Shown here one piece after another: positions 1-15,557 of a DNA stretch of 33,463 nt. The position numbers and the translations under genes are program-made. Positions within the stretch are counted from its first letter, which is position 1. Each line of letters opens with the position of its first letter. The notes beneath the pieces were generated by a model. The model ran no database searches and was not told the origin of the DNA. It saw only the letters and a program-made list of their open reading frames with translations. Source of the stretch: an uncultured Planctomycetaceae bacterium (GTDB lineage: Bacteria; Planctomycetota; Planctomycetia; Planctomycetales; Planctomycetaceae); NCBI GenBank assembly GCA_913031625.1, contig CAJWGB010000035.1, forward strand, positions 1 to 33,463, written 5' to 3'.

Positions 1-815
1 ACGAGCGTGAGAAACCATGGGAAGACAAAGTCAGATACATCGCTGACGTTGCCAGAGACAACGACTGTGCTCTGCGCGTCGGAGTCAACTGCGGATCGGT
101 CGACCCGGAGAAGAAGGCGAAGTACGACACGGAGGATTCCATCTCACCAATGCTGGAGAGTGCGTTCGATCACTGTCAGCTTCTGGATGACTATGACTTT
201 ACGCGTTATTGTGTTTCCCTGAAGGACTCAGATCCTCAGAAGGTGATAGAGGTCAACAAGCGATTCGCCGAACAGCGGTCTGATGTTCCACTCCACCTGG
301 GAGTCACCGAAGCGGGGATGCCGCCGGACGGCATCATCAAGACTCGCATCGCATTCGAACAGCTGATCAGCCGCGGCATCGGCGACACAATTCGTGTGTC
401 GCTCACCGTCCCCAACGGCCGCAAGCCTGAAGAGATTGATGCAGGGCGACAGATCCTTGAGGACATTGCCAACGGTCGCGTCCGTTCAGTCGTCGACTTT
501 GGACTCAATACGCTCAACATCATCAGCTGCCCAAGCTGTTCGCGTGTCGAAAATGAAGCCTTTGTTGAGCTGGCAGCTCAGGTTAAGGAAATGACCGAGT
601 ATGCCAAAGACCATGCAATTACAATTGCTGTAATGGGGTGTCGTGTAAACGGACCCGGCGAAACGGACGACGCCGACCTCGGTCTGTGGTGCGGCCCAAC
701 ACATGTGAACCTCAAGAAGGGGCCGGAACCGGTCGGGGCGTTCCCCTATGACGAGATTCTGCCAAAGCTAAAATCAGAGCTGGACCAGCTGATCGCCTCA
801 AAGCAGCCATCGTAA
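1..815 (+). CDS. ispG: 4-hydroxy-3-methylbut-2-en-1-yl diphosphate synthase, 3' part
   Basis: IspG (GcpE) makes HMBPP from MEcPP in the cytosolic MEP isoprenoid pathway using a [4Fe-4S] cluster. The frame is open from the window edge (first full codon at 3), so the start and roughly the first quarter of the protein are missing. About 270 residues are visible. Near the left edge is GVNCGSVDP, matching the family's GVN-x-GS-L segment, followed by LHLGVTEAG and GDTIRVSL. The three cluster cysteines are present: two in CPSCSR (codons at 528 and 537) and one in [10 protein letters not shown] (codon at 639). The conserved Glu of NGPGE is also there. Spacing fits the ordinary bacterial two-domain form without the large insertion of plant and chlamydial enzymes, as far as visible. 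The stop is at 813-815; the decayed glycosyltransferase fragment on the other strand ends against it. Identification is firm. Confidence 0.97.
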
Positions 816-820
816 GCTGA

Positions 821-1000
821 GCCGGGCAACAGTGAGTTAGGTGCTTCGCGAATCATATCCGGCGAGCCATCGTGACTGGCATTGTCAAAAACGACAGCTT
901 CGCAGTCAGATTCGTGTTTCCGCAATGAGGACAGGCAGTTGCGAGTCAGTTCTTTGGTGTTGAAGCTGACAGTTATGACAGACGCCAGATTTGGTCTTCC
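821..1000 (-). pseudogene. N-terminal fragment of a family-2 glycosyltransferase
   Basis: Reading the minus strand from about 1000 down to 821 gives an uninterrupted stretch with the classic GT2 (GT-A fold) opening: a hydrophobic strand ASVITVSFN, then TKELTRNCLSSL, and the donor-nucleotide-binding DNASHDGSPDMIRE. This matches the family pattern VDNASxDGSxEMI. No start codon fits well, and the homology breaks off after about 50 residues near the 3' end of ispG, where the rest of a roughly 300-residue enzyme should be. I infer a truncated gene. It lies in a different frame from the GT2 fragment just upstream (973-1290). No function should be assigned. Confidence 0.7.
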
Positions 1001-1290
1001 TGATAAACCGTGCGAACGCCAAAACGTCGCGACACATGAATAACAACCGGATAATTGGTCGTGCGCAGAGACTGACGGCCCACATCAACAAGCCATTCGA
1101 TCGTTCTGCCCGCAGTTGCTTCCAGCAGCTTGATATCGCTGAACTCATCGCAAATCGTCCGCACGCATCGATCAAAACTCTGATCCACCACCACAATCTC
1201 TGACTGGGGAAAGGACCGACGTGCTGTGCGAATGCAGTCCCGAACCGCCGGAACAGAGTCGTAGCTAATGATGACGAACGCTGGTTCCAT
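973..1290 (-). pseudogene. second GT2 glycosyltransferase, N-terminal fragment
   Basis: A 105-residue frame starting with ATG at 1290. Residues 4-55 look like the first half of a GT-A domain: FVIISYDSVPAVRDCI, then SEIVVVDQSFDRCVRTICDEF, which fits the family pattern VxVVD-x-S-xD-x(5)-I. Residues 55-90 (EATAGR through PVVIHVS) loosely follow the family's next helix and strand. The expected DxD region and the acceptor half are absent, and the frame stops where family members have another 150 or more residues. It begins 3 bases after the stop of the truncated GT4 gene, the tight spacing of a former operon. I see a remnant rather than a working small protein. Confidence 0.6.
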
Positions 1291-1293
1291 ACC

Positions 1294-1776
1294 TTACACC
1301 TCAATCGTTTCAGCCGGGGTGAGCTTTGAAGGAGCCAGCTTTCGGTCGGCAGGCAACTCCTGCCCCAGTCGTTCGCAAATAAAGTTTCGATACTTCGCGG
1401 CCTGAGCTTTCCAGCTTCCTTCGGCGATGACTCGTTCGTGGATCGCTGTGCCGAGTTCTGCACCTCTTACAGGCGAATGAAAGCTCTTCGTAGGCGTATT
1501 CGTTTCGGGAGAAGGAGATCGAAGGCCACTTCTCAGACTTCTCACGTGACGCAAACCGACACCGTGAGACTTAAGCCCTTCGGGAACGTCATCTCTCGTC
1601 GCGAACAGTTCCACGTCAATATCTTCGTACTGAGCCATCGCTCGCGCGACTTCAGGAAACGCTGTCTCGGCGCCGCGCTTTACGCGCCCGGGAAGAACAA
1701 AGGCAACTCGAATAGGTGGATCCGGCACGCCGATGGCTCCCGAAGAGACTGCGTTTCGAATTTGGACGGACGGCAA
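1294..1776 (-). pseudogene. family-4 glycosyltransferase with its central part deleted
   Basis: A 160-residue frame. Residues 22-75 are a recognisable GT4 N-terminus: IRVAFVLPGRVKRGAETAF followed by EVARAMAQYEDIDVELFAT, the usual first strand, Gly-rich turn and helix of GT-B enzymes. Residues 104-133 (RGAELGTAIHERVIAEGSWKAQ and the following AAKYRNF) look like the extreme C-terminus of the same fold, the helix pair after the second Rossmann domain. The intervening roughly 250 residues, including the E-x7-E sugar-nucleotide site, are missing with the frame kept, so I infer a large internal in-frame deletion. Enzymes of this type transfer sugars in polysaccharide assembly; this product cannot be expected to do so. 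The start chosen is the upstream-most; a later start near residue 22 is possible. Confidence 0.7.
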
Positions 1777-1821
1777 AACGGATTGCCGGGTTCTCTATCG
1801 GGGACCACTGATTCCACTTGC

Positions 1822-2013
1822 TCACTTTTCCTGATGCAGACAATCGAATTGGCAAATTGCTGCGAAGGACGTTGCGCTGACCCAAAGAGCTGTCCTGACT
1901 GAACTGCACTGTGTGGATTGCATAGTTCTCAAGATGACAATGGCACCTTTACGATGCGCGGCCTGAATTTCCGGCGTGATGACATATAACAGCCGTATCT
2001 TCTTCATTTCCCC
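1822..2013 (-). pseudogene. short reading frame resembling the first strand of a glycosyltransferase
   Basis: From ATG near 2007 on the minus strand the frame reads MKKIRLLYVITPEIQAAHRK before losing any recognisable pattern. It is preceded closely by an AGGGGA ribosome-binding-like stretch. The start resembles that of many GT4 enzymes (basic residues, then a beta strand ending in VIT). Given the GT fragments that follow on the same strand, I take it as another remnant, but the evidence is only about 12 residues. Confidence 0.25.
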
Positions 2014-2460
2014 TGAGTAGTATTTCAACCACCAGCAGCACTGATGTCAGTCGCGTACGGCTTGCCAGTGAGCTGTACCAACGCTTCGCCCGCGCGTCCG
2101 GTCTGCGTAACCGACTGCGATGGTGGTGCTATCCCCCATGTTTCTGGTGGTTGGATCAGGTGGACTATGGATTGACGGAAGCGGGTTCATCCCGAGTTCG
2201 ACTGACACGCGGATTTTCATCCAGCGAAAAGGATATCCAGTCATCAATTGAGGGAACCGCGCTGAGTGAACTCCGAACGGCTCTGGAAACGATTCTCGGA
2301 GAGCGTCACATCGATACGCGAATCCTGCCTGGCGATTCTGGCCAACAAACGTCTGGATTCACAGGACCCTGGCGTCATACCAACTCGTAGCGCCGGTAAG
2401 GAGCACCGATTCCCCTGCGAGCCTGTATCGGTCGATGTGAGTTATTCCGGCAGCAATGCT
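1983..2460 (+). pseudogene. degraded coding remnant, possibly the C-terminus of a GMC oxidoreductase
   Basis: The plus strand is open from 1983 to a TAG at 2388 in frame 3 and looks coding in composition. Residues such as SSRVRLTRGFSSSEKDIQSS and GPWRHTNS recall the GMC (glucose-methanol-choline) oxidoreductase C-terminal half, where a strand PRVxLxW is followed by a long helix and then the catalytic W-H-H-x-G-T-T segment. After the TAG, a frame-shifted stretch near 2430-2455 could be the decayed NLFVAGSS region. Such oxidoreductases occur in polysaccharide clusters, which would fit the glycosyltransferase remnants. The match is by eye, with stops and shifts needed, so this is a tentative call. 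Confidence 0.25.
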
Positions 2461-2568
2461 CCGGATAGACGAGACGTGCAGGTGTCGGGGTGAAACGTAC
2501 TGTTTGGCTGCTTGTTCACACGCGAGGCCTTGCGGCCTTCGGCTGGCAATTAACCTGCAGGCGAGGGA

Positions 2569-3741
2569 TCAGTGCTGGACCACGCGTCGAATCACAAAGA
2601 ACGAGACGATCGCCAGAAGCACGTTGGGGATCCACATTGCCCAGGACGGATCAACCGTTCCGTTCTTTCCCAGGTTGACCATCAGGAACGTCACTGGATA
2701 GTAGACCAGCAGGATGGGCAGAAAGCACATGATGAAACTGGTGATAAACTGTCGCCTGGCCTGGAGCACCGAGAATGGCCCTCCAAGGAGCGTGAAGAAC
2801 AGGCAGCTTCCAGCCATGGCATAACGGCTGTGAATCTCTGTATTGAAGCGTCTCAGCATTCTGTCTGCTTCACCGTCATATCCGGCGTACTGCTGCATCT
2901 CTGCACCTGTCAGTCGATGAAACTCTCCCGTCAACAGGGCCATTGCTGCTTCATGATCGCGCTGCTGCCGCATCTCCTGACGTTTGCTGTTGTATTCGTC
3001 CATCTGCGTATAGATGGTGTCGATTGTCATGTGCCGCGGTTTACGGCGTGACCGCTGCGGATCCATATCCAGAGTGATCACCTGACTGTCAAAAGATGCG
3101 CCTGCGTTCTGTCCCGGAATACTGCCTCTTGCGTTTCGCAGTTCGACTTCAGCCACATGATTCTCAAGATCAAAGTTGATCCTTGCATACTGAGCATTCA
3201 CGGTCACCTGATCGTGATTGCTGTTTCGATATCGAAACGTTGGATTGACCAGAACGTCTCCTTTGACGTCCTCCACGGTGATGGAGTACCCCTTCTCCGG
3301 TTCGCTGATGTGATGTTGTGCTCGCAGCATATCCAGAAAGATGTCTTCCATCGCCTGGCTGACAACGCGTTCGATATTATCCATCGCCCACGGGATGGCG
3401 TAGTTCGTCAGACCGAACGATGACACCGTGAGCACTCCTCCCAGAAGAAACGCGGGAGTCAGCAGCTTTATGGGAGAGACACCTGCAGCCTTCATTGCCG
3501 TGACTTCAAGATCTCCGGCAACACGACCGTAGACAACCGTAACGGCCAGCAGCAGTGTGGCAGGAATCGTGAACGGCAGCATGCTGGGAACAATGTAGGG
3601 CAGAATCTGAAGAATCTGCTTAGCTCCCAGACCCTCGTCAGCCGCTTCCCGCAGCAGCCCCACAAATACCAGCAGAATCGTGAGGACCACGACGAGGAGG
3701 GCGAACACCTTCAGCAGTTCCAGAAGGATGTATCTCTGCAT
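2569..3741 (-). CDS. LptF/LptG family permease (LPS export ABC transporter subunit)
   Basis: YjgP/YjgQ-type integral membrane protein of about 390 residues. In the LptB2FG complex two such subunits drive lipopolysaccharide out of the inner membrane toward the LptC/A bridge. The start at ATG 3741 (MQRYILLELLK) is preferred over an upstream frame because the first helix follows at once, as in the family. Three hydrophobic helices lie near residues 10-30, 48-72 and 92-115. A hydrophilic beta-rich periplasmic domain occupies roughly 120-290, and three more helices lie near 300-320, 325-348 and 365-385, the canonical 3+3 layout. KAAGVSPIKLL follows helix 2, at the family's cytoplasmic coupling loop. 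It is downstream of the GYF gene on the same strand (342-base gap). A second, divergent family member is at 9440-10558; the two probably partner. Which is LptF and which LptG cannot be told. Confidence 0.88.
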   Translation of the reverse strand: MQRYILLELLKVFALLVVVLTILLVFVGLLREAADEGLGAKQILQILPYIVPSMLPFTIPATLLLAVTVVYGRVAGDLEVTAMKAAGVSPIKLLTPAFLLGGVLTVSSFGLTNYAIPWAMDNIERVVSQAMEDIFLDMLRAQHHISEPEKGYSITVEDVKGDVLVNPTFRYRNSNHDQVTVNAQYARINFDLENHVAEVELRNARGSIPGQNAGASFDSQVITLDMDPQRSRRKPRHMTIDTIYTQMDEYNSKRQEMRQQRDHEAAMALLTGEFHRLTGAEMQQYAGYDGEADRMLRRFNTEIHSRYAMAGSCLFFTLLGGPFSVLQARRQFITSFIMCFLPILLVYYPVTFLMVNLGKNGTVDPSWAMWIPNVLLAIVSFFVIRRVVQH

Positions 3742-4083
3742 CAGCTTCACGCAACACCTCGGAGTGTCTGGTGATTGCTGATGGTGACGCGCATCTCTGC
3801 TTCCCTGCAGACGGACCAAGGGCGGAATTGTTTGTTTTCAGGCGGAAATCTAGGGATTTTGGCTGAGCCGAACAATGCCGTTCTGACACGTCGACCGCCT
3901 GCGTTAACCAGCCTCAGACAGCAGTTTCCCGCGATAACGGCGGCGGAATCGGAGAATCCGCCGGATTCATGCCTTTTTCCGCGCTGTGATTCGCCACAAA
4001 ATGGCACCAACAGCGGTTTCCGATAACGCTGCACGACGCTGCGGTCTCGTGAAACCAGATCTGTCGTGTGGTCAGTCCGCGAA
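3742..4083. other. intergenic stretch between two minus-strand genes
   Basis: No convincing gene. The one structural element is an inverted repeat at 3941-3963 (arms CGGCGGA and TCCGCCG around a 9-base loop). It has no adjacent T-run in either direction, so it is not an obvious intrinsic terminator. A promoter for the LptF/LptG-type gene may lie here but no clear -35/-10 pair stands out. Confidence 0.5.
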
Positions 4084-5439
4084 CTACTGGACTTTGATCA
4101 GCGCCGCCCAATACGGCTTGATCGCTTTTGTATTGGGATCTTCAAACCCGACACTTGCACGACACTCCTGGCCTGCGGTGAAGCCGGAAAACGGCTGGCC
4201 TCGCACAAGCTCAATTGTGGACGCATTCAGGACAATCTTTCCAGTCCCGTTCCATGAAGCCCGATAGTAGCTGTCGCCAATCAGTATGTGGATGGCATTG
4301 GGTGGAGAGGCACCGGCAGGCACTGTCATCGTGTATGGTGAGGTGTCGATCGAGAGCGCGGGACCTGCAGCCACGGTGTACGGCTGAGCGGTTCCGGCGA
4401 TCTGATTATGGACTTCATCCATCGTGATCACCGGTCCCTCCTGCTGAGCGCCGGCGTCCGGATTGCCACCACTCGGAGTCCCCGGCTGACCAGGGCCAGA
4501 GGGCTGTCCTCCCTGTTGCTGGTTTCGGTTACGAAGTGCCATCAGAGCGGTTCCATCATGGAACCGGATTTCTTTGGTGATCATTTCATCCAGCAACGTC
4601 AGCCGGACGCGAACACGATCGGCGGCATCCTCTTTGCCCTTCGGAAGCTCCTTGATCATCAGCGGCAGGTCGTCGCGCGCGGTGAATAGCAGTTCCTGCT
4701 TGACCATGTCCATGGAGTTGGCATTGTCCTGCAGACGTGCCACCATGGGCTCAAGCTCTGATTCCGTCGTTTCCAGCAGGCTGATCCATACCTGAGCGTT
4801 GGCATTGTTATCTCTGGTCGTGATGACCTTCTGCTGAATCGCCTGCAGAGTCTTCATGTCTGCAAGGTCCTGAGTGAAGTCTTCCGCCAAGAAGACGAAC
4901 CAGATCAGGCCACCAACCAGCGCCAGAGCAATCGGAGCGACAAGCACGACGCGACGTTCGATCCAGCGGAACATCCGTGGAAACAGGCCATCTACATAGC
5001 CGTCATCGTCTTCCCATTCTTCGTCGTCATCATCAGAGTCGGCTGAGACATCTTCGTCGTCATCATCATCATCATCCTCAGCCCGACGCCGGCGACTGGG
5101 GGATGAGCGTTTGCGTTCGGAAGTTGGAATGCTGGCCGGTGGATCGTCGTCCTCATCCGTAAAACCATCGTCAAACGGGGAGCTGCCTCCACCGAATGGG
5201 CTTTCGTCTTCAACGGGTTCCGGTCCTCCAGCGCCTGCAAAGAGCTCCGGGAACTCACTGGCGGGAAACCAGTTCCTGCGGTCTTCGGAGACGTGAAAAT
5301 GGCGATTAAATCGTCCTCGGCGCAGCAGGCCGTGGATCCGTTCCTCGGAAAACGGTCCCTGAACGCGACCGCGGTTTCTGATCCAGTATCTGGCCAACAG
5401 CGAAACTCCTGTCCGGCTCTCGATTTGCCGGTCATTCAC
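4084..5439 (-). CDS. GYF-domain single-pass membrane protein
   Basis: A 451-residue protein of unknown role. Residues 18-62 form a GYF_2-type domain: YWIRNRGRVQGPFSEERI, then LRRGRFNRHFHVSEDRRNW. The GPFS core and the trailing W are typical. In bacteria this domain is usually a peptide-binding or membrane-tethered module. Residues about 70-150 are disordered and strongly acidic (long Asp runs around 118-145). One transmembrane helix follows near 165-187 (LVAPIALALVGGLIWFVFLA). The rest is probably extracytoplasmic: a helical stretch (190-300), a Q/G/P-rich linker (305-340) and a beta-rich end with a tryptophan near the C-terminus. GYF followed by an acidic linker and one TM is common in planctomycete hypothetical proteins. 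The gene is divergent from ilvN. No enzyme motif was seen. Confidence 0.8.
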   Translation of the reverse strand: MNDRQIESRTGVSLLARYWIRNRGRVQGPFSEERIHGLLRRGRFNRHFHVSEDRRNWFPASEFPELFAGAGGPEPVEDESPFGGGSSPFDDGFTDEDDDPPASIPTSERKRSSPSRRRRAEDDDDDDDEDVSADSDDDDEEWEDDDGYVDGLFPRMFRWIERRVVLVAPIALALVGGLIWFVFLAEDFTQDLADMKTLQAIQQKVITTRDNNANAQVWISLLETTESELEPMVARLQDNANSMDMVKQELLFTARDDLPLMIKELPKGKEDAADRVRVRLTLLDEMITKEIRFHDGTALMALRNRNQQQGGQPSGPGQPGTPSGGNPDAGAQQEGPVITMDEVHNQIAGTAQPYTVAAGPALSIDTSPYTMTVPAGASPPNAIHILIGDSYYRASWNGTGKIVLNASTIELVRGQPFSGFTAGQECRASVGFEDPNTKAIKPYWAALIKVQ

Positions 5440-5591
5440 AGTCTAGTCCATGCCCCCATATGAAACAAAAGGCAGCTCTCCAAATCGGGGATTTGCCGGC
5501 CAACGGGCAAGACCGGGACGGAAGGTAGCTATTGGGGCGTCAATCCGGGTTAAAATGTACGGATACGCGGTTCTGCGCCTGGGAAAGGCCC

Positions 5592-5608
5592 GAATCCTGC
5601 CAGGATTC
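5592..5608. promoter_or_regulatory. 17-base palindrome upstream of ilvN
   Basis: Perfect inverted repeat GAATCCTG-C-CAGGATTC, centred about 107 bases before the ilvN start and about 160 bases from the divergent GYF gene. The dyad with a one-base centre looks like a dimeric repressor or activator operator; as RNA it could also form a 6-bp hairpin. There is no second copy I noticed in the window. Operator function is inference only. Confidence 0.35.
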
Positions 5609-5706
5609 AAAGTGTCTGGTTGCTGCATGCAGGGGCCGTTCGTAGACTGCCCTGCTAGGTTGCCGAGGTCCTTCGGCTATCTCCAACGATTTTCAGGCCA
5701 GATTCC

Positions 5707-6246
5707 ATGCGTCGTCACATTCTGTCAGCTTTGGTTATGAACCAGCCGGGCGTTCTCGCTCAGATCTCCGGCATGTTGGCAACTCGCGCGTTCAACATTG
5801 ACAGTCTCGCTGTGGGTGCCACCGAAAACCAGGAGTTTTCGCGTGTGACATTTGTCGTGATCGGCGATGAAAAGGTGCTGGATAAGGTCCGCAAGCAACT
5901 GGAGAAGCTGGTGACGGTCGTCACGGTTCAGGATTACCTGGACCAGGAGTATGTCGAGCGTGACCTGATGCTGATGAAAGTCAGCACTGCCGGGGGCCGC
6001 CGAGCCGAGGTACGCGAACTGGCCCAGATCTTTCGGGGACGAATCGTCGACGTGGGACAGGAACACGTGATGGTCGAAATCTCGGGTCGCGAGAGCAAAA
6101 TTGAAGCGTTCATCGACCGAATGCGAGATTTTGGGATCCTCGAAATGGTCCGCACGGGCCGCGTCGCCATGCTGCGAAACGCTACGATTACTCAGGATCT
6201 TCCTCCGGATGTAATTCCTGAAGTTTCAGAAGCATCGGCATCCTGA
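5707..6246 (+). CDS. ilvN: acetolactate synthase small (regulatory) subunit
   Basis: Regulatory subunit that binds branched-chain amino acids and activates the catalytic IlvB/IlvI subunit, first common step of valine and isoleucine synthesis in the cytosol. At 179 residues it is the usual long form. Residues 4-75 are the ACT domain: HILSALVMNQPGVLAQISGM, then FNIDSLAVGATE, with the conserved NxPGVL ligand loop and NI-x-SL motif. Residues about 80-165 are the C-terminal subunit domain (ERDLMLMKV, FRGRIVDVG, GRESKIEAFIDRM, RTGRVAM). ATG 5707 places the first beta strand right at the N-terminus as in homologues; no strong Shine-Dalgarno sequence precedes it. ilvC follows 138 bases later, suggesting co-transcription. 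No ilvB is in the window; the large subunit must be encoded elsewhere. Confidence 0.95.
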   Translation: MRRHILSALVMNQPGVLAQISGMLATRAFNIDSLAVGATENQEFSRVTFVVIGDEKVLDKVRKQLEKLVTVVTVQDYLDQEYVERDLMLMKVSTAGGRRAEVRELAQIFRGRIVDVGQEHVMVEISGRESKIEAFIDRMRDFGILEMVRTGRVAMLRNATITQDLPPDVIPEVSEASAS

Positions 6247-6384
6247 CCTGATCTGACTTCCGGACGGCGGTATTCTGGCATCAGAGCACTCGACAGTCCC
6301 GATTTTGCAATCATTGACGCACCCGAACGGTCGCGGTGCAGTTTTTAGTTTCCATAGTTCAATTCCAACCACAGGACCTGTTTC

Positions 6385-7389
6385 ATGGCAGCCAGGGTTT
6401 ATTACGACGACGACGCAGATCTGAGTCTGCTCAAAGACAAGACAATCGCCATCATCGGCTACGGTAGCCAGGGGCACGCTCAGGCACAAAACCTGCGTGA
6501 CAGTGGATGCAATGTGGTTGTGGGGCAGCGGCCGGGCGGTCCCAACTATGACCTCGCCAAGAGCCACGGCTTTGAGCCTCTTTCAGCAGCTGACGCTGCC
6601 AAACAGGGTGACCTCGTCAACATTCTGCTGCCGGACGAAGTTCAGGGAGCCGTTTACAACAACGACATTAAGCCCAACCTTGAGCCCGGCAATCTGCTGA
6701 TGTGCTCACACGGATTCAACATCCACTTTGGACAGGTAGTTCCCCCCGCAGGAGTGGACTGTGCTCTGGCCGCTCCGAAAGGGCCTGGACACCTTGTCCG
6801 CAGCGAGTACGAAAAAGGCGGCGGTGTGCCCAGCCTGATTGCTCTCAGTGATGGAGCATCAGAAACATCTCGTCAGCTGGCTCTGGCTTATGCCAAAGGC
6901 ATCGGCGGAACTCGTGGCGGTGTTATTGAAACAACCTTCGAAGAAGAAACTGAAACCGACCTGTTCGGCGAACAGGTCGTTCTTTGTGGCGGTGTTTCTG
7001 CACTTGTCAAAGCCGGTTATGAGACTTTGGTTGAAGCGGGCTACCAGCCTGAGATGGCCTACTTTGAATGTATGCATGAGCTCAAACTGATCGTCGACCT
7101 GTTCTATCAGGGCGGCCTGAACTACATGCGTTACAGTGTTTCCAACACGGCCGAGTACGGCGACTACAGCAGTGGCCCTCGGATCGTAACGGAAGAAACC
7201 AAAGCTGAAATGAAACGCATTCTGACTGAGATTCAGAATGGTCAGTTCGCTCGAGACTGGCTCCTCGAAAACAAGGCGGGACAGCCATCATTTCATGCAA
7301 CACGACGACGTGAACGCACCCATGAGATCGAAAAAGTGGGCAAAGAGCTACGTCGTATGATGAGCTGGATTGACTCCAAAGAAGTCTAG
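6385..7389 (+). CDS. ilvC: ketol-acid reductoisomerase
   Basis: Class I (short) KARI, 334 residues, converting acetolactate or acetohydroxybutyrate to the dihydroxy acid with Mg2+ and NAD(P)H. The N-terminal Rossmann fold has GYGSQG at 25-30. The cofactor-specificity loop after strand 2 reads [15 protein letters not shown] (44-58); R49 is kept, but the serines that usually grip the 2'-phosphate are replaced by G/P/N, so cofactor preference is uncertain. The knotted C-terminal domain shows all metal and substrate residues: D192 and E196 in ETDLFGEQ, E228 and E232 in AYFECMHEL, and S253 in [11 protein letters not shown]. It lies downstream of ilvN and ends in an intrinsic terminator. Start ATG 6385 gives [13 protein letters not shown], the standard beginning. 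Confidence 0.97.
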
Positions 7390-7402
7390 GACTGAACGAA
7401 AC

Positions 7403-7431
7403 ACCCCGTCATCTGGCGGGGTTCTTTTTTT
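7403..7431 (+). terminator. intrinsic terminator after ilvC
   Basis: Six-bp stem (ACCCCG pairing with CGGGGT), eight-base loop and a following T-rich run (TTCTTTTTTT), beginning 14 bases after the ilvC stop. This marks the end of the ilvN-ilvC transcript. Confidence 0.85.
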
Positions 7432-7440
7432 GCGGTACAC

Positions 7441-7459
7441 GAGTCGCTCCGAACGACTC
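7441..7459. repeat. short inverted repeat in the leader of the TIM-barrel gene
   Basis: GAGTCG and CGACTC separated by seven bases, between the ilvC terminator and the ribosome-binding site AGAGGGG (7467-7473) of the next gene. It could be a small operator or a 5'-UTR hairpin; nothing further supports either. Confidence 0.3.
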
Positions 7460-7479
7460 TTTCGATAGAGGGGAATCAC

Positions 7480-8418
7480 ATGTCACCAGGATCACGACGA
7501 GACTTTCTTGCCGCGTCTGCAACAGCGGCGGCTGCCGGACTGGCGCCTCAGGCGGTCAAAGCTGCTTTCGCACCCGCACCGAAATTCAAAATCTCACTCG
7601 CGCAGTGGTCTCTCCACAAGATGATCTTCAGCGGGAAACTGAATCACCTCGACTTTGCCGCGACCACAAAGAAGGAATTTGGAATTGAGGCCGTTGAGTA
7701 CGTCAATCAGTTCTTCAAAGACAAGGCAGGCGACAGCAAGTTTCTGGCTGAGATGAATAAGCGAGCTGAAGACAACGGCGTCACTCAGCTGCTGATCATG
7801 ATTGACGGAGAAGGACGCCTCGGCGACCCCAGCCTAACTAAACGTGCCCAGGCAGTTGAGAACCACTACAAGTGGGTCGAAGCGGCAAAGACACTTGGGT
7901 GTCACTCAATTCGAGTCAACGCCGGCAGCGCAGGAAGCTATGAAGATCAGATCTTCCGTGCCGCAGATGGATTGCGAGCTCTCTCCGAATTTGGAGACCA
8001 GCACGGGATCAACGTTATTGTTGAAAACCACGGCGGGCTCTCTTCCAACGGCAAGTGGCTGTCCACCGTGATTAAGACAGTTGATCACAAACGATGTGGC
8101 ACTCTGCCTGACTTTGGAAACTTCGGAATCAACCGAGGCAAAGACGAATGGTACGACCGCTACGAAGGCACAAAAGAACTGATGCCATTCGCAAAGGCAG
8201 TTAGTGCCAAGACATACGACTTCGACGATTCCCGTCCATTCGTCACTGTCGACACACGCTGGAAGAAAGAAACTGACTACAAAAAGATGATGAAGATCGT
8301 CGCCGATTCAGGATATGAAGGCTGGGTCGGAATCGAATACGAAGGCGGCAAGCTGGGCGAAGCCGAAGGAATCAAAGCCAGCAAGGCCCTGCTGCAGCGA
8401 GCAATCGAGTCGCTGTAG
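7480..8418 (+). CDS. Tat-exported sugar phosphate isomerase/epimerase-like protein
   Basis: Xylose-isomerase-like TIM-barrel protein (AP endonuclase family 2 fold), 312 residues. It starts with a twin-arginine signal, [19 protein letters not shown], with cleavage likely after VKA near residue 28, so it should act in the periplasm. Barrel features include [11 protein letters not shown] (strand 1), GIEAVEYV with a metal-ligand Glu, [17 protein letters not shown] (Glu), TLPDFGNF (Asp) and WVGIEYEGG (Glu), consistent with a divalent-metal site. Planctomycetes carry many such exported paralogues, presumed to act on sugars or oxidised sugars; the substrate is unknown. ATG 7480 is preceded by a strong AGAGGGG site six bases upstream. 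A single-gene unit bounded by terminators on both sides. Confidence 0.85.
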
Positions 8419-8487
8419 AACCAGTCCGAAGAGAAGCACCCGGTCGGCTGGCCTCTCGAGAAACGTGTCACGACCAGAAACGATTCT

Positions 8488-8517
8488 AAACGCGGCGGAT
8501 TCTCCGCCGCGTTTTTT
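8488..8517 (+). terminator. strong intrinsic terminator after the TIM-barrel gene
   Basis: Perfect 12-bp stem (AAACGCGGCGGA with TCCGCCGCGTTT) around a three-base loop TTC, running into six Ts, about 70 bases after the stop codon at 8418. Its A-flanked left side could weakly stop minus-strand transcription from the HAD gene as well. Confidence 0.88.
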
Positions 8518-8624
8518 CTGCGCGCCCAACCAGACACCGCAGGGTGACCTGTATCGCCATCTGATAAACGCCCTGAAATTCCCACCGATCCACATCCCAG
8601 AGGAGTGATGAGAGACAGTCGTGC

Positions 8625-9314
8625 CTAAATCAGATCTGTAAGTGTTGCCACAACAGTGGCGCCCTCCGGCGCTTGTAACGTGTCACCGTTTCGGCAGAGC
8701 CATACAGACTTCATGCCGGCTGTCAGTGACCCTTCCACATCATTAACCAGATCATCACCGACGAACAGGACTTGCTGAGGCCGAAGCTCCAGGTGGCGAC
8801 AAACGGCCTCAAAGAATCGGACGTCCGGTTTTCTCCACCCAACCACGGAAGAAATAACTCGGTGTGGCACATCCTTCAGTCCGGGTAAGCCATCGCACAC
8901 ACTGTTGAGACGCAGGTCAAAATTGGACGCGATCGCTGTCCTCAGGCCTGCTGAATGCAGACCGTCAATCGTCTCTTCCGTTTCCGGAAAACACCTCCAG
9001 TTGGCAGCGTCTGCAAAGTGGGCGAACAGGTGATCGAAACAGTCCTGAAAGCCCGAGGACTCGCCGGCAAGATCCTGAATCAGCCCCGCCCAGAAGTCTC
9101 GCTCTGCCGCCTCACTGGTCGCAAGGTCCCCGGACGCCCTGCCCTGGAGGGCATCACGGACGGCCGCCGAAACCGTATTGGCAGGAATATCCACGTGGCA
9201 GAATCGTGTCATCGCAGCGCAATATGCTTCCGCAACGGATGGATTCGGATACATGACTGTGCCGACGGCGTCAAAAACCACGGCCTGGATGTCTGAAAGG
9301 ATTGAATTTGGCAT
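8625..9314 (-). CDS. HAD-superfamily hydrolase
   Basis: Haloacid-dehalogenase-like phosphatase of about 229 residues from ATG 9314 (a longer frame reaches GTG 9422 but adds a region unlike the family). Motif I is VVFDAVGTV with nucleophile D15; the usual second Asp is replaced by Val, as in the FDAVGT subgroup, so phosphatase activity may be weak or altered. Motif II is IASNFD, motif III the Lys of WRKPDVRFF, and motif IV VGDDLVNDVEG. A helical cap domain fills about 25-110. The C-terminal VWLCRNG resembles HAD-IA proteins. Substrate unknown; such proteins act on small phosphorylated metabolites in the cytosol. It is transcribed away from the LptG-type gene, with about 125 bases between starts. 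Confidence 0.85.
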   Translation of the reverse strand: MPNSILSDIQAVVFDAVGTVMYPNPSVAEAYCAAMTRFCHVDIPANTVSAAVRDALQGRASGDLATSEAAERDFWAGLIQDLAGESSGFQDCFDHLFAHFADAANWRCFPETEETIDGLHSAGLRTAIASNFDLRLNSVCDGLPGLKDVPHRVISSVVGWRKPDVRFFEAVCRHLELRPQQVLFVGDDLVNDVEGSLTAGMKSVWLCRNGDTLQAPEGATVVATLTDLI

Positions 9315-9439
9315 CGCGGACAGCAGTCTGGCAGATTGGACGTGCGGACGGTCTTGACCTGAATTCGACACCTGAAGTGTAATTCGCGGATTACCGTATC
9401 GATTCTCATCCCGGTTCGCCACGCCCGGCGCAAGTCCTC

Positions 9440-10558
9440 TTGCTGACTACCTTCGACAAATATCTGCTTAACAGGCTGGTCCACACGTTCGCAGTTTTTT
9501 TCATTGCGACGTACGGTCTGTTTGTTGTCATCGACCTGTTTACCAATATCGATGACTTCATGCGTGACGGCGACTCCACACTGCATATGGCCGGCGGGAT
9601 CGCGAAATACTACGCGTATCGAGCTGTTGAATTTCTTGAAATGGCAGGTCCAACGCTCATCATCCTTGCAGCAGTTGCCGTGCTGGGCCTGCTGGAACGC
9701 CACTCAGAGTCGCATCCGATTCTGGCAGCCGGCGTCCCTGCCTTTCGGTTGCTGAAGCCGCTGCTGATTGGGGCGGGGGGCCTGAGTCTCCTGCTTGTCC
9801 TGAATCAGGAATTTCTAATGCCATCTCTGGCAGTCGAATTACAGACGCCTCGAGGAGGCAACAGTGCGCAGGTGCAGAAAGTCGACCCTGTCTACGACTA
9901 CACCAACTATCTGATGCACATTGATGGCCGCGAAGTCATTATCGAGGAAAGACGGCTGGTTCAGGCGAGCTTCAACCTGCCGCGCGAGCTGGCTCGGCAG
10001 AGTTATGCTCTCGAAGCTGATTCAGCCGTATTCCATTCCGCAACGGACAACCACCCTGCCGGCTGGCTGCTTGAGAATCTCACTGGTCTGTTCGATGAGT
10101 CGTTGCTGACGAAGGAAGGCCGTGAACGAGTCATCCCCAGAAACAATGGACGCGATGTATTCATCGTGTCTGATGTCAGCTTTGAGCACCTCTACAACCG
10201 AGGACGCAATCTTAAGCTGTTGTCATCGAAGGAACTGATCGAACGAATTCGCAATCCGTCAACAGGATTCATGCCGGTGCAAAGCCAGAGCCTGGCGCTG
10301 CACTCCAGGGTCACCCGGCCTCTGTTGACGTTGTTGTCCATCACCATTGCGCTGCCGTTGATCATGCGTCGCGAATCGAAGAGCCTGATTATGAATATGG
10401 CAACCTGCGCTCTTGTTCTTGGCGTTTTCTATGGCTTCTTTCAGGGATGCCTCGCCATGGGCAGCGGCCACTTCCTGCGACCCGACCTTGCCGCATGGCT
10501 CCCCGTGATCGTGATGGGCGGAACCAGCGTCTGGACAACCGGCTACGTCCAGACTTAA
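9440..10558 (+). CDS. LptF/LptG family permease, second copy
   Basis: 372-residue YjgP/YjgQ-type protein, presumed inner-membrane half of the LptB2FG lipopolysaccharide exporter. It opens MLTTFDKYLLNRLVHTF and FVVIDLFTNIDDF, matching the LptG N-terminus (first helix and the DLFxNxDxF loop). Helices lie near 13-35, 60-82 and 100-122. A periplasmic beta domain occupies about 125-285, and helices near 292-312, 318-340 and 345-368 complete the 3+3 topology. The start is TTG at 9440: the frame upstream has a stop at 9380-9382 and no ATG or GTG, and TTG gives the family N-terminus. No clear ribosome-binding site. Sequence is quite different from the copy at 2569-3741, so they are likely the two different subunits of one heterodimer. 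Confidence 0.87.
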   Translation: MLTTFDKYLLNRLVHTFAVFFIATYGLFVVIDLFTNIDDFMRDGDSTLHMAGGIAKYYAYRAVEFLEMAGPTLIILAAVAVLGLLERHSESHPILAAGVPAFRLLKPLLIGAGGLSLLLVLNQEFLMPSLAVELQTPRGGNSAQVQKVDPVYDYTNYLMHIDGREVIIEERRLVQASFNLPRELARQSYALEADSAVFHSATDNHPAGWLLENLTGLFDESLLTKEGRERVIPRNNGRDVFIVSDVSFEHLYNRGRNLKLLSSKELIERIRNPSTGFMPVQSQSLALHSRVTRPLLTLLSITIALPLIMRRESKSLIMNMATCALVLGVFYGFFQGCLAMGSGHFLRPDLAAWLPVIVMGGTSVWTTGYVQT

Positions 10559-10741
10559 ATGCGTGTCTCGGCTGCCAGACTGCGTTCCACGAAACTGTAC
10601 CCGTTCACCAGCCCGCCACGCCACAGGAAATTGCGTCCATCGTTGCCACTGGTTGCAACGATTGGCTTTGCTGCAGGAAGTACTCTTATTAGCGGAAGTG
10701 CGCAAGCACTCCAGCCGAACCACCCTCCGAGTTCGAATTGA
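10559..10741 (+). CDS. 60-residue hypothetical, possible signal-peptide remnant
   Basis: ATG directly follows the TAA of the LptG-type gene, so translation could re-initiate. The product has a basic N-terminus (MRVSAARLRSTK), a hydrophobic stretch SLPLVATIGFAAGSTLI near 29-45 and then GSAQA, which resembles a signal peptidase site, followed by only about ten residues. It may be a truncated secreted protein or a chance frame. I do not recognise it. Confidence 0.25.
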   Translation: MRVSAARLRSTKLYPFTSPPRHRKLRPSLPLVATIGFAAGSTLISGSAQALQPNHPPSSN

Positions 10742-10873
10742 CCAATCCGGCAGCCAACTCATAAGCGCACTCGGGCGGCTCGCGCCGCTCCGCTGTGAAG
10801 CTGTAATGAGATAGCCGAAGGCAAAGGCTCGGGCATCAACGATGCGACCAGACTGTGCGTTCTGCCTGGACGC

Positions 10874-11044
10874 TTACACGTCTCGGCTGACAATAGGCAA
10901 AGCTGCCAAACGACTCATGTCGACAGATACAATTTCTTCCCTCGCGTCGGGTGACCAATGAACCCAGCGCATAGTTGACCTGAATACCGCCACAGGTAAT
11001 CCAGCTACCGTGTACTGAATCCCCGGACTACGTTGATTCCGCAC
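10874..11044 (-). CDS. short unrecognised reading frame after the EAL gene
   Basis: Minus-strand frame ending in TAA at 10876-10874. From ATG 10972 it encodes 32 residues (MRWVHWSPDAREEIVSVDM and 13 more). The same frame stays open and coding-looking back to GTG 11044, giving 56 residues that include YTVAGLPVAVFRST, and would overlap the 3' end of the FHA-EAL gene by 17 bases. The balance of charged and hydrophobic residues looks like protein rather than noise. It could be a small conserved protein or the tail of a decayed gene. No family recognised. Confidence 0.35.
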   Translation of the reverse strand: MRNQRSPGIQYTVAGLPVAVFRSTMRWVHWSPDAREEIVSVDMSRLAALPIVSRDV

Positions 11045-12278
11045 GCTGGATCTGTCGCGACATCAGCTGCTGACTTTTCAACACCTGAGTTGGGTTGCCT
11101 GGTTCGCTGTCCGGAATCGCCTGCATGATCGCAGGACGGCTTAGTGCATAACCCTGAACAAGGTCGAAACCGGTTTGTTCACAGAGCTCGATCATCTGAG
11201 GCGTTTCGACACCTTCAGCGACTGTGATTGCTCCCTCTTCGCGAACTCCCTGGATGATTGATCGAAACAGTCGAAACTGCTCCTTTGAAACATCCTGCAG
11301 ATCGTGGATCAGTGCTGCATCGAACTTAATGTAATCTGACGGAGCACAGATGAGTTCTCGAATTCTTGCCTGCCCCGCACCAAAGTCATCAAATGCCAGC
11401 TGAACGTCTATTTCGTGCAGCGCTGCTCTGACGTTTCGAACCAATCCGGGTTCAGTGATTGCACCCTCGTGGATTTCAAGAACCAGAGGTCGCATGGGAA
11501 ATGCCCCGCGCAACTGTCTAAGTTGGGGAACGACCTGCTCGAGCAATGGTTCGGCCGGGTGAGTATTCAGAAACAGAGGCATACCGGCCGGCAGACAGGT
11601 GCTGTGCTGCGTTCCGACTTCGCGGCACATCATGGACAGCTCAACTTCCTGCCCGGCAGCTTCAGCTGCGCTAAACATAGCGGCCGGTCCGGTAACGCCA
11701 CTGACGTTGCTGCGGGCAAGATACTCGTATCCGCAGATATTCCGGTCAGAGAGCCGATGAATGGGCTGGAAGCAGGGTTCCAGCGACCGTTGTTCGAGCA
11801 GCTGAATGAGTCCTCGATGGGATTCCTTCTCATTGCCCAGATTCAGCAGACGCGATTTCTGAAAGTCCAATGCTTCGCGCGGACCGTCTTCTTTTACGGA
11901 GCCGACGCGCAGATGCACGTCGCCAATTTCAATCCAGTCGCCTTCCGAGAGAAGGGTGTCCGCTTTGATTCGCTTACCGTTGACGAACGTTCCGTTCGTG
12001 CTGTTGGAGTCTCGAATGCAGAGTACCCCGGCGACTTCAATCAGTTCGGCATGTGTACCACTGATGACCGGGGAACTCAGCGACAACTCATGATCCGGCC
12101 GTCGACCAATCCGAAACGGTGATGACCGAATCGGGACACGCTGAGGAGTACGATCTTTCTCGAATGTTCCACTGAGTGTCCAGATGATGCGCGAGTTTTT
12201 CCTCGACGTCATCTTTGTTCCAAGGGCTGTTATCATGGGTGCGGTTCTCTGGTGGTGCTGTTTAGGTTGACGAGTCAA
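11028..12278 (-). CDS. FHA-EAL protein, probable cyclic-di-GMP phosphodiesterase
   Basis: 416-residue cytoplasmic protein joining an FHA domain (about 45-125) to an EAL domain (about 155-395). The FHA part has the phosphothreonine-binding residues: R59/R60 in RIGRRPDHE, S73 and H76 in SGTH, and N95 in DSNSTNGTFVNGKRI. The EAL part keeps the catalytic set: E185 (EYL in place of EAL), N238 (FLNTHP), E268 (LEIHEG), D297-D298 (FDDFGAG), K318 (IKFDAALI), E355 (AEGVET) and Q375 (VQGYALSRP). It should therefore be able to hydrolyse c-di-GMP to pGpG. No GGDEF or PAS domain. Phosphopeptide binding by FHA suggests control by a Ser/Thr kinase, of which planctomycetes have many. The first ~22 residues are poorly family-like; starts at 12236 or 12212 are possible. 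Confidence 0.9.
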   Translation of the reverse strand: MTRQPKQHHQRTAPMITALGTKMTSRKNSRIIWTLSGTFEKDRTPQRVPIRSSPFRIGRRPDHELSLSSPVISGTHAELIEVAGVLCIRDSNSTNGTFVNGKRIKADTLLSEGDWIEIGDVHLRVGSVKEDGPREALDFQKSRLLNLGNEKESHRGLIQLLEQRSLEPCFQPIHRLSDRNICGYEYLARSNVSGVTGPAAMFSAAEAAGQEVELSMMCREVGTQHSTCLPAGMPLFLNTHPAEPLLEQVVPQLRQLRGAFPMRPLVLEIHEGAITEPGLVRNVRAALHEIDVQLAFDDFGAGQARIRELICAPSDYIKFDAALIHDLQDVSKEQFRLFRSIIQGVREEGAITVAEGVETPQMIELCEQTGFDLVQGYALSRPAIMQAIPDSEPGNPTQVLKSQQLMSRQIQRAEST

Positions 12279-12988
12279 CAGTCCGCCATCGTTACCAATA
12301 AACGAAGCTGACCTGTTCAGCGGCCCCGTTTTGGTGCCAGCTGTTTATTTACGGCTCCTTCCCGCACAACAAGCAAATTGGTGGATGACGAGTCCGGACG
12401 CCGCTGATATCCACAAGGTTCCGCAGACCGTACTTAAAGGAATCCTGTTGCGAATCAGACTTTATTCTGTTCGAGTAAGAGCCGTTCTTTTTGTGACCCG
12501 GTGCGATTCGTGGCCGTAGCAGCTTCAGGAGACAGGGGAGCGATGGCTCGGAGACATTGCCATCACTCCCCTTCCCCGGAGATGATTCAGGACGGTTCTC
12601 AGTTCCCGATCTGGTGTCTGTTGGTGTACTCCAGTGGTTGATGCCCGGCGATGTAGCCCTACCTCCTGCAAAGGCCGTACCCATTTACCGTTCCTTAACA
12701 AATTCGCCGGGATCCGACACTTATTACACGTGGACGTCCGAGAAACCTGCACCAAACCACGCACGGTGAACGAAATATGGTTGCTGATAAACAGGGCATT
12801 GAACGGGCGGAGTGCTGAACAATCGTGCTTGAGAAGAATCCTTCTGCAGGACTGAGTGATCGGCGACTTAAATCCGACAACGTGGGGAACAATTCTGTTC
12901 CGGGATGCAGCTACGGAGCGGGCTGGTTGTACGGTCCGCGAGGATTGTTAATCTGGTGCCTGGACTTTCCAGCTGAGCAATTGAGGCC
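12279..12988. other. 710-base intergenic region without a recognisable gene
   Basis: Lies between the divergent FHA-EAL gene and the two-TM protein. The longest frames (for example 12349-12684 minus) are Ser/Pro/Arg-rich with no pattern I recognise. It presumably holds promoters for both flanking genes. No tRNA-like cloverleaf, terminator or repeat array was seen. Confidence 0.5.
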
Positions 12989-13654
12989 ATGACTAAAGAG
13001 GAATTCATCGACTGGCTCGCAGCCCGGGTTTCCCGTCAGGAGCGGCTGACCATGTCCGCTTGCGCCGGGCTTGCCGTCGCCGGGCTCGGAGCATTTATGG
13101 TCACAGGAGGGCTGCTGTTTCTCATCATGTGGTCTCTCTATGGGGGAGTAACTCTGCCCTTTATGTTGCTGTCAATGCTCTATGGAATCTCCACCGTGTA
13201 TGTATTGTTCAGCGTGGGGCAGCACCTCTCGGAGCAGGAGCACGAGGCGGAGTGGAATGGAGAGGTCACCGAATTTCGACTGGCCACCCCCGTGTCGCAC
13301 TACTGGACCTATTCAATGGGGAGCATGGATACGGAACAGTCGATTCCCGAACGAATTTTGAACATCGCTCTCATGCCTCCTCGTTTTTTCTGGTCAGTCG
13401 TTCAGACATGGAAACGAATTGAAGATCTGAAGCAGGTGAACAACGAAGCGTGCGGCCGCGTACTCCGCCTGGCAGTCAAGAAGTCTGAAATGGTGCCGGC
13501 GAGTCTGATTCTTGAGAAGCTCGGCCGGGAGTACGACATGCCGAAGCTCTTTCGTGATCTGTCGATGATTAATGACGTCATTTTTCTGACACATAGTGCT
13601 GTCGGAGTGAGTCTTACTCAGGGTTTCCGTGACGACCTTGACAAGGCCTGCTGA
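12989..13654 (+). CDS. two-TM membrane protein of unknown function
   Basis: 221 residues. A short cytoplasmic N-terminus (MTKEEFIDWLAARVSRQERL) precedes two adjacent hydrophobic helices near 23-48 and 52-76. The rest is soluble: residues 80-110 are acidic (QEHEAEWNGEVTEF), and a helical C-terminus runs from about 120. No catalytic motif and no family I can name. GAGG lies four bases before the ATG, a short but usable spacing. The next gene starts about 130 bases downstream on the same strand, so a shared transcript is possible. Coding status is supported by length, clean membrane topology and sensible composition. Confidence 0.7.
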   Translation: MTKEEFIDWLAARVSRQERLTMSACAGLAVAGLGAFMVTGGLLFLIMWSLYGGVTLPFMLLSMLYGISTVYVLFSVGQHLSEQEHEAEWNGEVTEFRLATPVSHYWTYSMGSMDTEQSIPERILNIALMPPRFFWSVVQTWKRIEDLKQVNNEACGRVLRLAVKKSEMVPASLILEKLGREYDMPKLFRDLSMINDVIFLTHSAVGVSLTQGFRDDLDKAC

Positions 13655-13787
13655 CAGATCGGCCGCTTCGGACCAGTTTTAGGATTGGCGGGAGCGATTG
13701 ACCGTGCAACTTGCCAGGCACAGATCTTCGGATATCCTGCCTGCCCCCGGCTCATGCATCCCCTAACCCCCGAGTGCTTTGGTGTCC

Positions 13788-15557
13788 ATGTCTTCATCTG
13801 ATGTTGATTTTCTGCATGCTCTCAAAGTTCGACGTGGAGTTGATTCAAAGATTTCCACAGCCATCAGGTCGGGTGATGCCGATTTGCTGCAGTCAGCCGT
13901 GACGAGTCTTCATGCGAAGTTGAGCCGAAAGCTTCAGAAACACGTCTCTGAGAAGCACCTGCTGGCAGGATGGAGTATCAAATCGGACTCGACTGAAGCG
14001 CCACCACTGGTATCGGGGCAGGGAGCCACCAGGAAAGCTTCTGCAAAATCTGTTGAAGAGTCGGCCGAGTGGCTGCTTTGCGCGTTAACTGGAGACGGAC
14101 CTGAACAGCCGGTTGCAGTCACTGCCGCTGCGGAACTGCTGCTGCGTTGGGGGCTCAAACTGCCGTCGGAGACATGGTGTCAATTACTGTGCGGCCTGAA
14201 TGATCATCTGTCTGTCCTGACAGGGCGTTCCGGATACGACTCCGAAATGACGCTGGCCGCTGAATCAGCGTTTGTGCTGAGCCTTGTGCTGGAGCCGATC
14301 GTCAACGTGACAGCGCTTCGGAAGTCAGCGGTTAAAGCACTTTCGAGTTGTGTCGACGAATCAACCGACACGGATGGAATGTTTCATGCGTCCATCGCTC
14401 GTGAAGCTGATTTCTGGATCGCTCCTCTTGTGCGAGCGGCAAACTGGTCAAAAGCAGCCGGAACTCCATGGCTGGACGAAGAAATGGAGGATCGCTGGAG
14501 GATGGCCGTCGCACGGTTTGCCTCCCTGATGACTCCCGACGGAATCGTCAGCAGTTCCGGATCCGCTCTTAGCCGCGGCATTTTGCATCATGCCGTGCGT
14601 CTGGCAGGGTTTGCAGCCGATTCTCGAGTTGGTCAGCTGGCAGCGTCCCTGAACGGTGACAAATCGGCTCGCCGCAACAGCCAGAAATCCAAACGTCGCG
14701 CCGGGCGATTCAACTGTCAGTCAGACTGGGCCGAATCAGCCGTCCTGCGCAGCCGCATGACAGTGGATGCTGATGTGATGACCCTGAACTGGGACGAAGA
14801 TACGGCGGCGGTGCAGCTTGCCGCACTGGGGTCCCGCGTACTTGGTGGCGCATGGTCGAGTGACCTGAGAGTCAATGGAAAGCCCCCCAAAGTTGAACCC
14901 GGCTGGTCATGCACCTGCTGGTACAACGATAAAGACGCCTCATTTGCAGAACTGGAACTGATTGACTCAGACGAAGTACGCCATGTTCGACACGTGATGC
15001 TATCGATGAAAGATCATTACGCTGTCATTTCAGAAAGCGTCTCTGTAAACGATGCTGATGCAGAGATTGAATACCATAGTTCGTTATCACTCGATGACCG
15101 ACTCACGGCGGAGCCAGATCCGATCACACGTCAGATCCTCCTGAATTCCGACTGTCATTCCGTAAGGGTCGTGCCAGCATGGCTGGATGACGATCGAGTT
15201 CAACCAACGATTGGAGCATGTCGCGTTCAGGGAAAAACACTTGAGATGTCAGTGACAGGACGTGGGGGTGTCTGTTTGCCACTGGTCCTTGACTGGCATC
15301 CGGAACGTCGGATTCACGACGCTGACTGGAATCGGCTGACAGTGACTGAAGAGCGTGTGGTCATGACCGGACAACAGGCATCGGGGTATCGGATTCGGAT
15401 CGGGCAGCTACAGTTGCTGCTGTATCGAAGTCTCGAACAGGGAGAAACTCTGAGAGCCGTACTCGGTCACCACACGGCCAGCGAAACCGTTTACGGCAAC
15501 GTCACCAATGAGGGTGAAATTGAGCCACTTGTGGTGGTCGAGGGCGTAACCGAGTGA
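13788..15557 (+). CDS. hypothetical protein with heparinase II/III-like layout
   Basis: 589 residues from ATG 13788 (a TTG nine bases upstream is less likely). The first ~290 residues are alpha-helical with repeated AAE-LLLRWG and LVLEP-type helices. From about 315 (SDWAESAVLRSRMT) to the end it is beta-rich, with segments such as SWSCTCWY-like, HVMLSMKDHYAVISESV and RIRIGQLQLLLYRS. A helical toroid followed by a beta sandwich is the architecture of heparinase II/III-type polysaccharide lyases, and HYAVISESV sits where their sandwich begins. I see no signal peptide and cannot point to the catalytic His/Tyr, so lyase activity is not established. It converges on the alkA-like gene, with 20 bases between stop codons. 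Confidence 0.6.
   Translation: MSSSDVDFLHALKVRRGVDSKISTAIRSGDADLLQSAVTSLHAKLSRKLQKHVSEKHLLAGWSIKSDSTEAPPLVSGQGATRKASAKSVEESAEWLLCALTGDGPEQPVAVTAAAELLLRWGLKLPSETWCQLLCGLNDHLSVLTGRSGYDSEMTLAAESAFVLSLVLEPIVNVTALRKSAVKALSSCVDESTDTDGMFHASIAREADFWIAPLVRAANWSKAAGTPWLDEEMEDRWRMAVARFASLMTPDGIVSSSGSALSRGILHHAVRLAGFAADSRVGQLAASLNGDKSARRNSQKSKRRAGRFNCQSDWAESAVLRSRMTVDADVMTLNWDEDTAAVQLAALGSRVLGGAWSSDLRVNGKPPKVEPGWSCTCWYNDKDASFAELELIDSDEVRHVRHVMLSMKDHYAVISESVSVNDADAEIEYHSSLSLDDRLTAEPDPITRQILLNSDCHSVRVVPAWLDDDRVQPTIGACRVQGKTLEMSVTGRGGVCLPLVLDWHPERRIHDADWNRLTVTEERVVMTGQQASGYRIRIGQLQLLLYRSLEQGETLRAVLGHHTASETVYGNVTNEGEIEPLVVVEGVTE

Follow-up and report, generated by a model that had tools for sequence, protein, structure and literature searches.

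The interval between ispG and an LptF/LptG-family permease gene in an uncultured Planctomycetaceae bacterium is very probably the scar of a lost gene cluster of the exopolysaccharide or O-antigen type, which was brought to this place by rearrangement. The DNA analyzed (the window, 33,463 nucleotides) is the whole of contig C35 of a 6.7-Mb draft genome that comprises 444 contigs and is 96% complete, and it was compared with the genomes of seven congeners (eight genus members with its own), of which G005 is a complete genome of 8.92 Mb. The ispG (NCBIfam PRK00366/TIGR00612; stop at 815) is 85–88% identical to those of the congeners, and the permease, which matched NCBIfam TIGR04407 below the curated cut-off, has orthologues of 62–69% identity in all of them. 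Scans of the window with Rfam and for tRNAs gave no matches. None of the raw fragments found between the two genes (Table 1) matched a glycosyltransferase family of Pfam, and the frame at 1290–973 matched neither Pfam nor NCBIfam. Because the fragments have no Pfam family match on their own, their identity is drawn only from comparison with relatives.

Table 1. Features of the window from ispG to the LptF/LptG-family permease gene.
Feature	Position	Strand	Description
ispG, 3' part	3–815	+	Contig starts within gene; visible part intact; left border of scar
GT2a pseudogene	851–988	-	First 46 codons only; similarity may extend to ~827 by eye; ends next to ispG stop
Extra truncated GT2	973–1290	-	N-terminal ~85 residues GT2-like, ending abruptly; not present in the G003 and G004 clusters
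GT4a pseudogene	1294–1725	-	Residues 25–105 frameshifted; ~250 codons deleted; residues 356–394 kept
PGT remnant (divergent polyprenyl-phosphate sugar transferase)	2049–2179	+	Residues 26–50 and 81–102; ~30 codons deleted between them; rest lost
Stretch between PGT remnant and repeat	2180–2410		No match to any relative locus compared
Dispersed MITE-like repeat, truncated copy	2411–2568		Abuts permease end of scar; outside glycan cluster
LptF/LptG-family permease, intact	2569–3819	-	Right border of scar

When the relatives were searched at the DNA level with the window, two congeners matched, G004 (contig C148) and G003 (contig C59). The matches on C148 formed two colinear blocks, with identities of 74% over 854–987 and 68% over 1467–1717, and the GT2a match in the whole-genome search had an E value of 3.6e-16. 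Both contigs carry an intact, divergent polysaccharide cluster of 11–12 kb (L012:4303–16339 in G003 and L011:316–11386 in G004), with rmlD, GT4b, GT2b, GT2a and GT4a on the minus strand and, on the plus strand, PGT (a bacterial sugar transferase, PF02397), a nucleotidyltransferase-like gene with hexapeptide repeats and genes for an RsbW-like ATPase, a STAS protein and an HDOD protein. The GT4, GT2, Bac_transf, RmlD, STAS and HDOD domains of these clusters were confirmed by Pfam. Positions 851–2179 of the window are colinear with the middle of this cluster, such that homologues of GT2a, GT4a and PGT follow one another in the identical order and on the identical strands, mostly with 54–70% amino-acid identity. 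The clusters of G003 and G004 are complete, are located elsewhere in the genome and lack the extra GT2 frame, whereas the window holds a broken remnant with an extra GT2. The colinearity and the intact clusters bear out the proposal of an earlier note on this DNA that a polysaccharide cluster had once been present, was eroded by deletions and left fragments in their original order.

We also observed that the RsbW-like anti-sigma kinase, STAS and HDOD genes occur together with glycosyltransferases in the intact clusters of the congeners, which suggests, from gene content, that they may form a partner-switch module controlling polysaccharide synthesis. In addition, a reverse-transcriptase-like protein (L012:3092–4180), recognized by eye from its YADDITMSF motif, adjoins the intact cluster of G003.

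The GT2a remnant (988–851) aligns with GT2a residues 1–46, with 70% identity to G004 and 65% to G003 (E value of 4e-17 with the G004 query against the whole window); it is cut at codon 46, and the similarity stops about 10–35 bases from the ispG stop. In the numbering of the G003 protein, GT4a residues 25–78 are found at 1710–1555 and residues 79–105 at 1555–1475 in another frame, following a -1 frameshift near 1555, while residues 356–394 lie at 1467–1351 with about 250 codons gone before them. This agrees with the earlier description of a GT4 that kept both ends and lost its middle. The GT4a start and the PGT remnant are about as far apart as in the relatives, and 1780–2049 corresponds by position to their divergent intergenic space.

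The PGT remnant, which is split and cut short, is the weakest match among the remnants. It consists of two colinear N-terminal pieces (2049–2123 and 2114–2179) that scored 27.3 and 19.6 bits; when the region was shuffled 300 times, the better piece outscored every shuffle with the G003 query (27.3 versus 26.9 bits for the top shuffle) and did not do so with the G004 query. Given that the two pieces have the expected order, strand and place and that a 30-bp DNA match to G004 (87%) accompanies them, this stretch is best read as the putative N-terminus of PGT. A possible GMC oxidoreductase fragment noted earlier on the plus strand is not supported, since the plus-strand frames had no Pfam match and PGT was matched instead. 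Of the four minus-strand fragments counted in the earlier note, three were identified as glycosyltransferases, two of them GT2 N-termini as claimed, while a fourth was found neither in 1780–2049 nor in the unmatched 2180–2410.

The second GT2 N-terminus, the frame at 1290–973, aligns over about 80 residues with GT2a-like proteins at 29–30% identity (E value of 1e-7 in a search of a whole genome). This 105-residue frame is open, and its ATG lies three bases past the GT4a stop (GTG TAA GGT ATG), a gap that had been reported correctly, so it is an example of a short frame that could be taken for a functional small protein. Such a function is highly improbable: the frame stops after about 85 GT2-like residues and so lacks the part needed to complete a GT2 fold, the genes beside it are plainly broken, and of the 297 genomes of the class just one other gave a match, there inside a longer frame. 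We read it as a truncated GT2, and the remnant as a whole would yield no working enzyme.

Over 164 codons, the remnants share 65–66% amino-acid identity with G003 and G004, versus 78% between G003 and G004. Of the changes private to the window, 40 of 74 hit codon position 1 or 2, versus 32 of 98 of those private to the intact copies of the two congeners (same codons; Fisher p 0.005). Within its own genome, the remnants also exceeded ispG in the share of changes at these positions (21/77 in ispG; p 0.0009) and showed no excess over the intact permease (85/160). Because the intact permease has a similar share, the comparison supports an apparent relaxation of constraint only when the intact copies (same codons) or ispG serve as the reference.

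Three genes of the cluster were looked for in the rest of the assembly. In the genome (96% complete, 444 contigs), GT4a was matched, besides the window fragments, only by distant GT4 proteins, and an intact copy was not found; the nucleotidyltransferase-like gene had no match at 1e-8 and GT4b none at 1e-25. Given that the assembly is a draft of 444 contigs at 96% completeness, an intact cluster could sit in a gap. Other polysaccharide pathways probably remain in this genome, since more distant sugar transferases are present elsewhere in it.

The 3' flank of ispG had been suggested to be a site of repeated gain and loss, and comparison of this flank among the relatives speaks against it. Six of the seven congeners have a single conserved, unrelated convergent gene after ispG and no glycosyltransferases there. 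The closest match of this usual neighbour in the genome under study (75% identity) lies at the end of another contig, C289, and the intact clusters of G003 and G004 are not beside ispG. Moreover, ispG and the Lpt permease are adjacent in none of the seven congeners, lying on separate contigs or, in the complete G005, about 930 kb apart; the present junction is thus, as judged from these genomes, specific to this genome or lineage. It is unlikely that the cluster was gained by horizontal transfer already beside ispG and then decayed in place. Its patchy distribution, with GT4a intact in two of the eight genus members and fragmentary in this one, would fit such a history, but the conserved flank does not, and the divergence of the remnants fits common inheritance with faster change. 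The remnant came to its present neighbourhood by rearrangement in this lineage. It was also observed that the gene surroundings of both ispG and the Lpt permease (window 1–15557 versus L039–L052) are conserved among several congeners and not in this genome, pointing to unusual rearrangement here.

The repeat at the permease border (2411–2568) matched 31 places in its own genome, the window copy included, and none in the seven congeners at the threshold used. The other copies are 72–89% identical to the window copy and are bounded by inverted repeats CAGGAAATTGCATCCRTCG, as in MITEs, with about 190–340 bases between these (191–339 in the loci examined). The terminal-repeat core of CAGGAAATTGCATCCRTCG, with at most one mismatch, had 53 matches in the genome (27 forward and 26 reverse), versus none for the reversed control and 0–2 per congener. 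The family is, on these counts, an apparent lineage-specific expansion. In the repeat loci examined, no autonomous element was found, and no longer element carrying a transposase between its terminal repeats. The repeat also occurs at 10624–10939 of the window and at about 30 further places in the genome (L004, L006–L010 and L066–L088).

A repeat copy at the border, in a draft of 444 contigs, raises the question of an assembly artefact, through which a chimeric join or errors in the sequence could give intact genes the look of broken ones or bring unrelated pieces together. We consider this very unlikely, because sequencing error does not account for a gap of roughly 750 bases in GT4a or for the disappearance of most of GT2a and PGT, searches of the other contigs did not recover the missing genes, and the other repeat copies are too divergent to mislead an assembler easily.

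The favored explanation, genuine decay followed by relocation, would begin with an ancestor that had the divergent cluster still present in G003 and G004. In this lineage the outer genes would have been lost, with rmlD, GT4b and GT2b gone from one side and the nucleotidyltransferase-like, RsbW, STAS and HDOD genes from the other. Internal deletions and a frameshift broke the central genes, and genome rearrangement would have placed what was left, 1.3 kb, between ispG and the Lpt permease. The homology, the colinearity, the lesions and the lack of an intact GT4a in the assembly are observed, while the order of events is inferred, and the MITE-like repeat at the permease border may have taken part in the rearrangement. 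That the repeat family drove the rearrangements, one of which removed most of the cluster and left the rest between ispG and the permease, is a tentative and rather doubtful extension.

The relic is a mark of rearrangement and not of an insertion hotspot, which corrects its earlier placement. It records that one planctomycete species lost an entire surface-polysaccharide pathway, in a genus in which only some members kept it and intact sister copies are available for comparison, and it illustrates that synteny can identify short frames that are invisible to domain models. The literature searched by title and abstract held nothing directly on point on glycan pseudogenes in planctomycetes. That surface polysaccharide clusters can be lost through deletions and frameshifts is known, and the case described here is ordinary gene decay, well documented by synteny. 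In Yersinia pestis, the O antigen was lost because five genes of the O-antigen cluster are inactivated (review, PMC3521224). The two cases are alike in that a glycan cluster became non-functional through lesions in several genes; they differ in that five cluster genes were inactivated in Y. pestis (PMC3521224), whereas in the window only about 1.3 kb of 11–12 kb is left, at a rearranged place.
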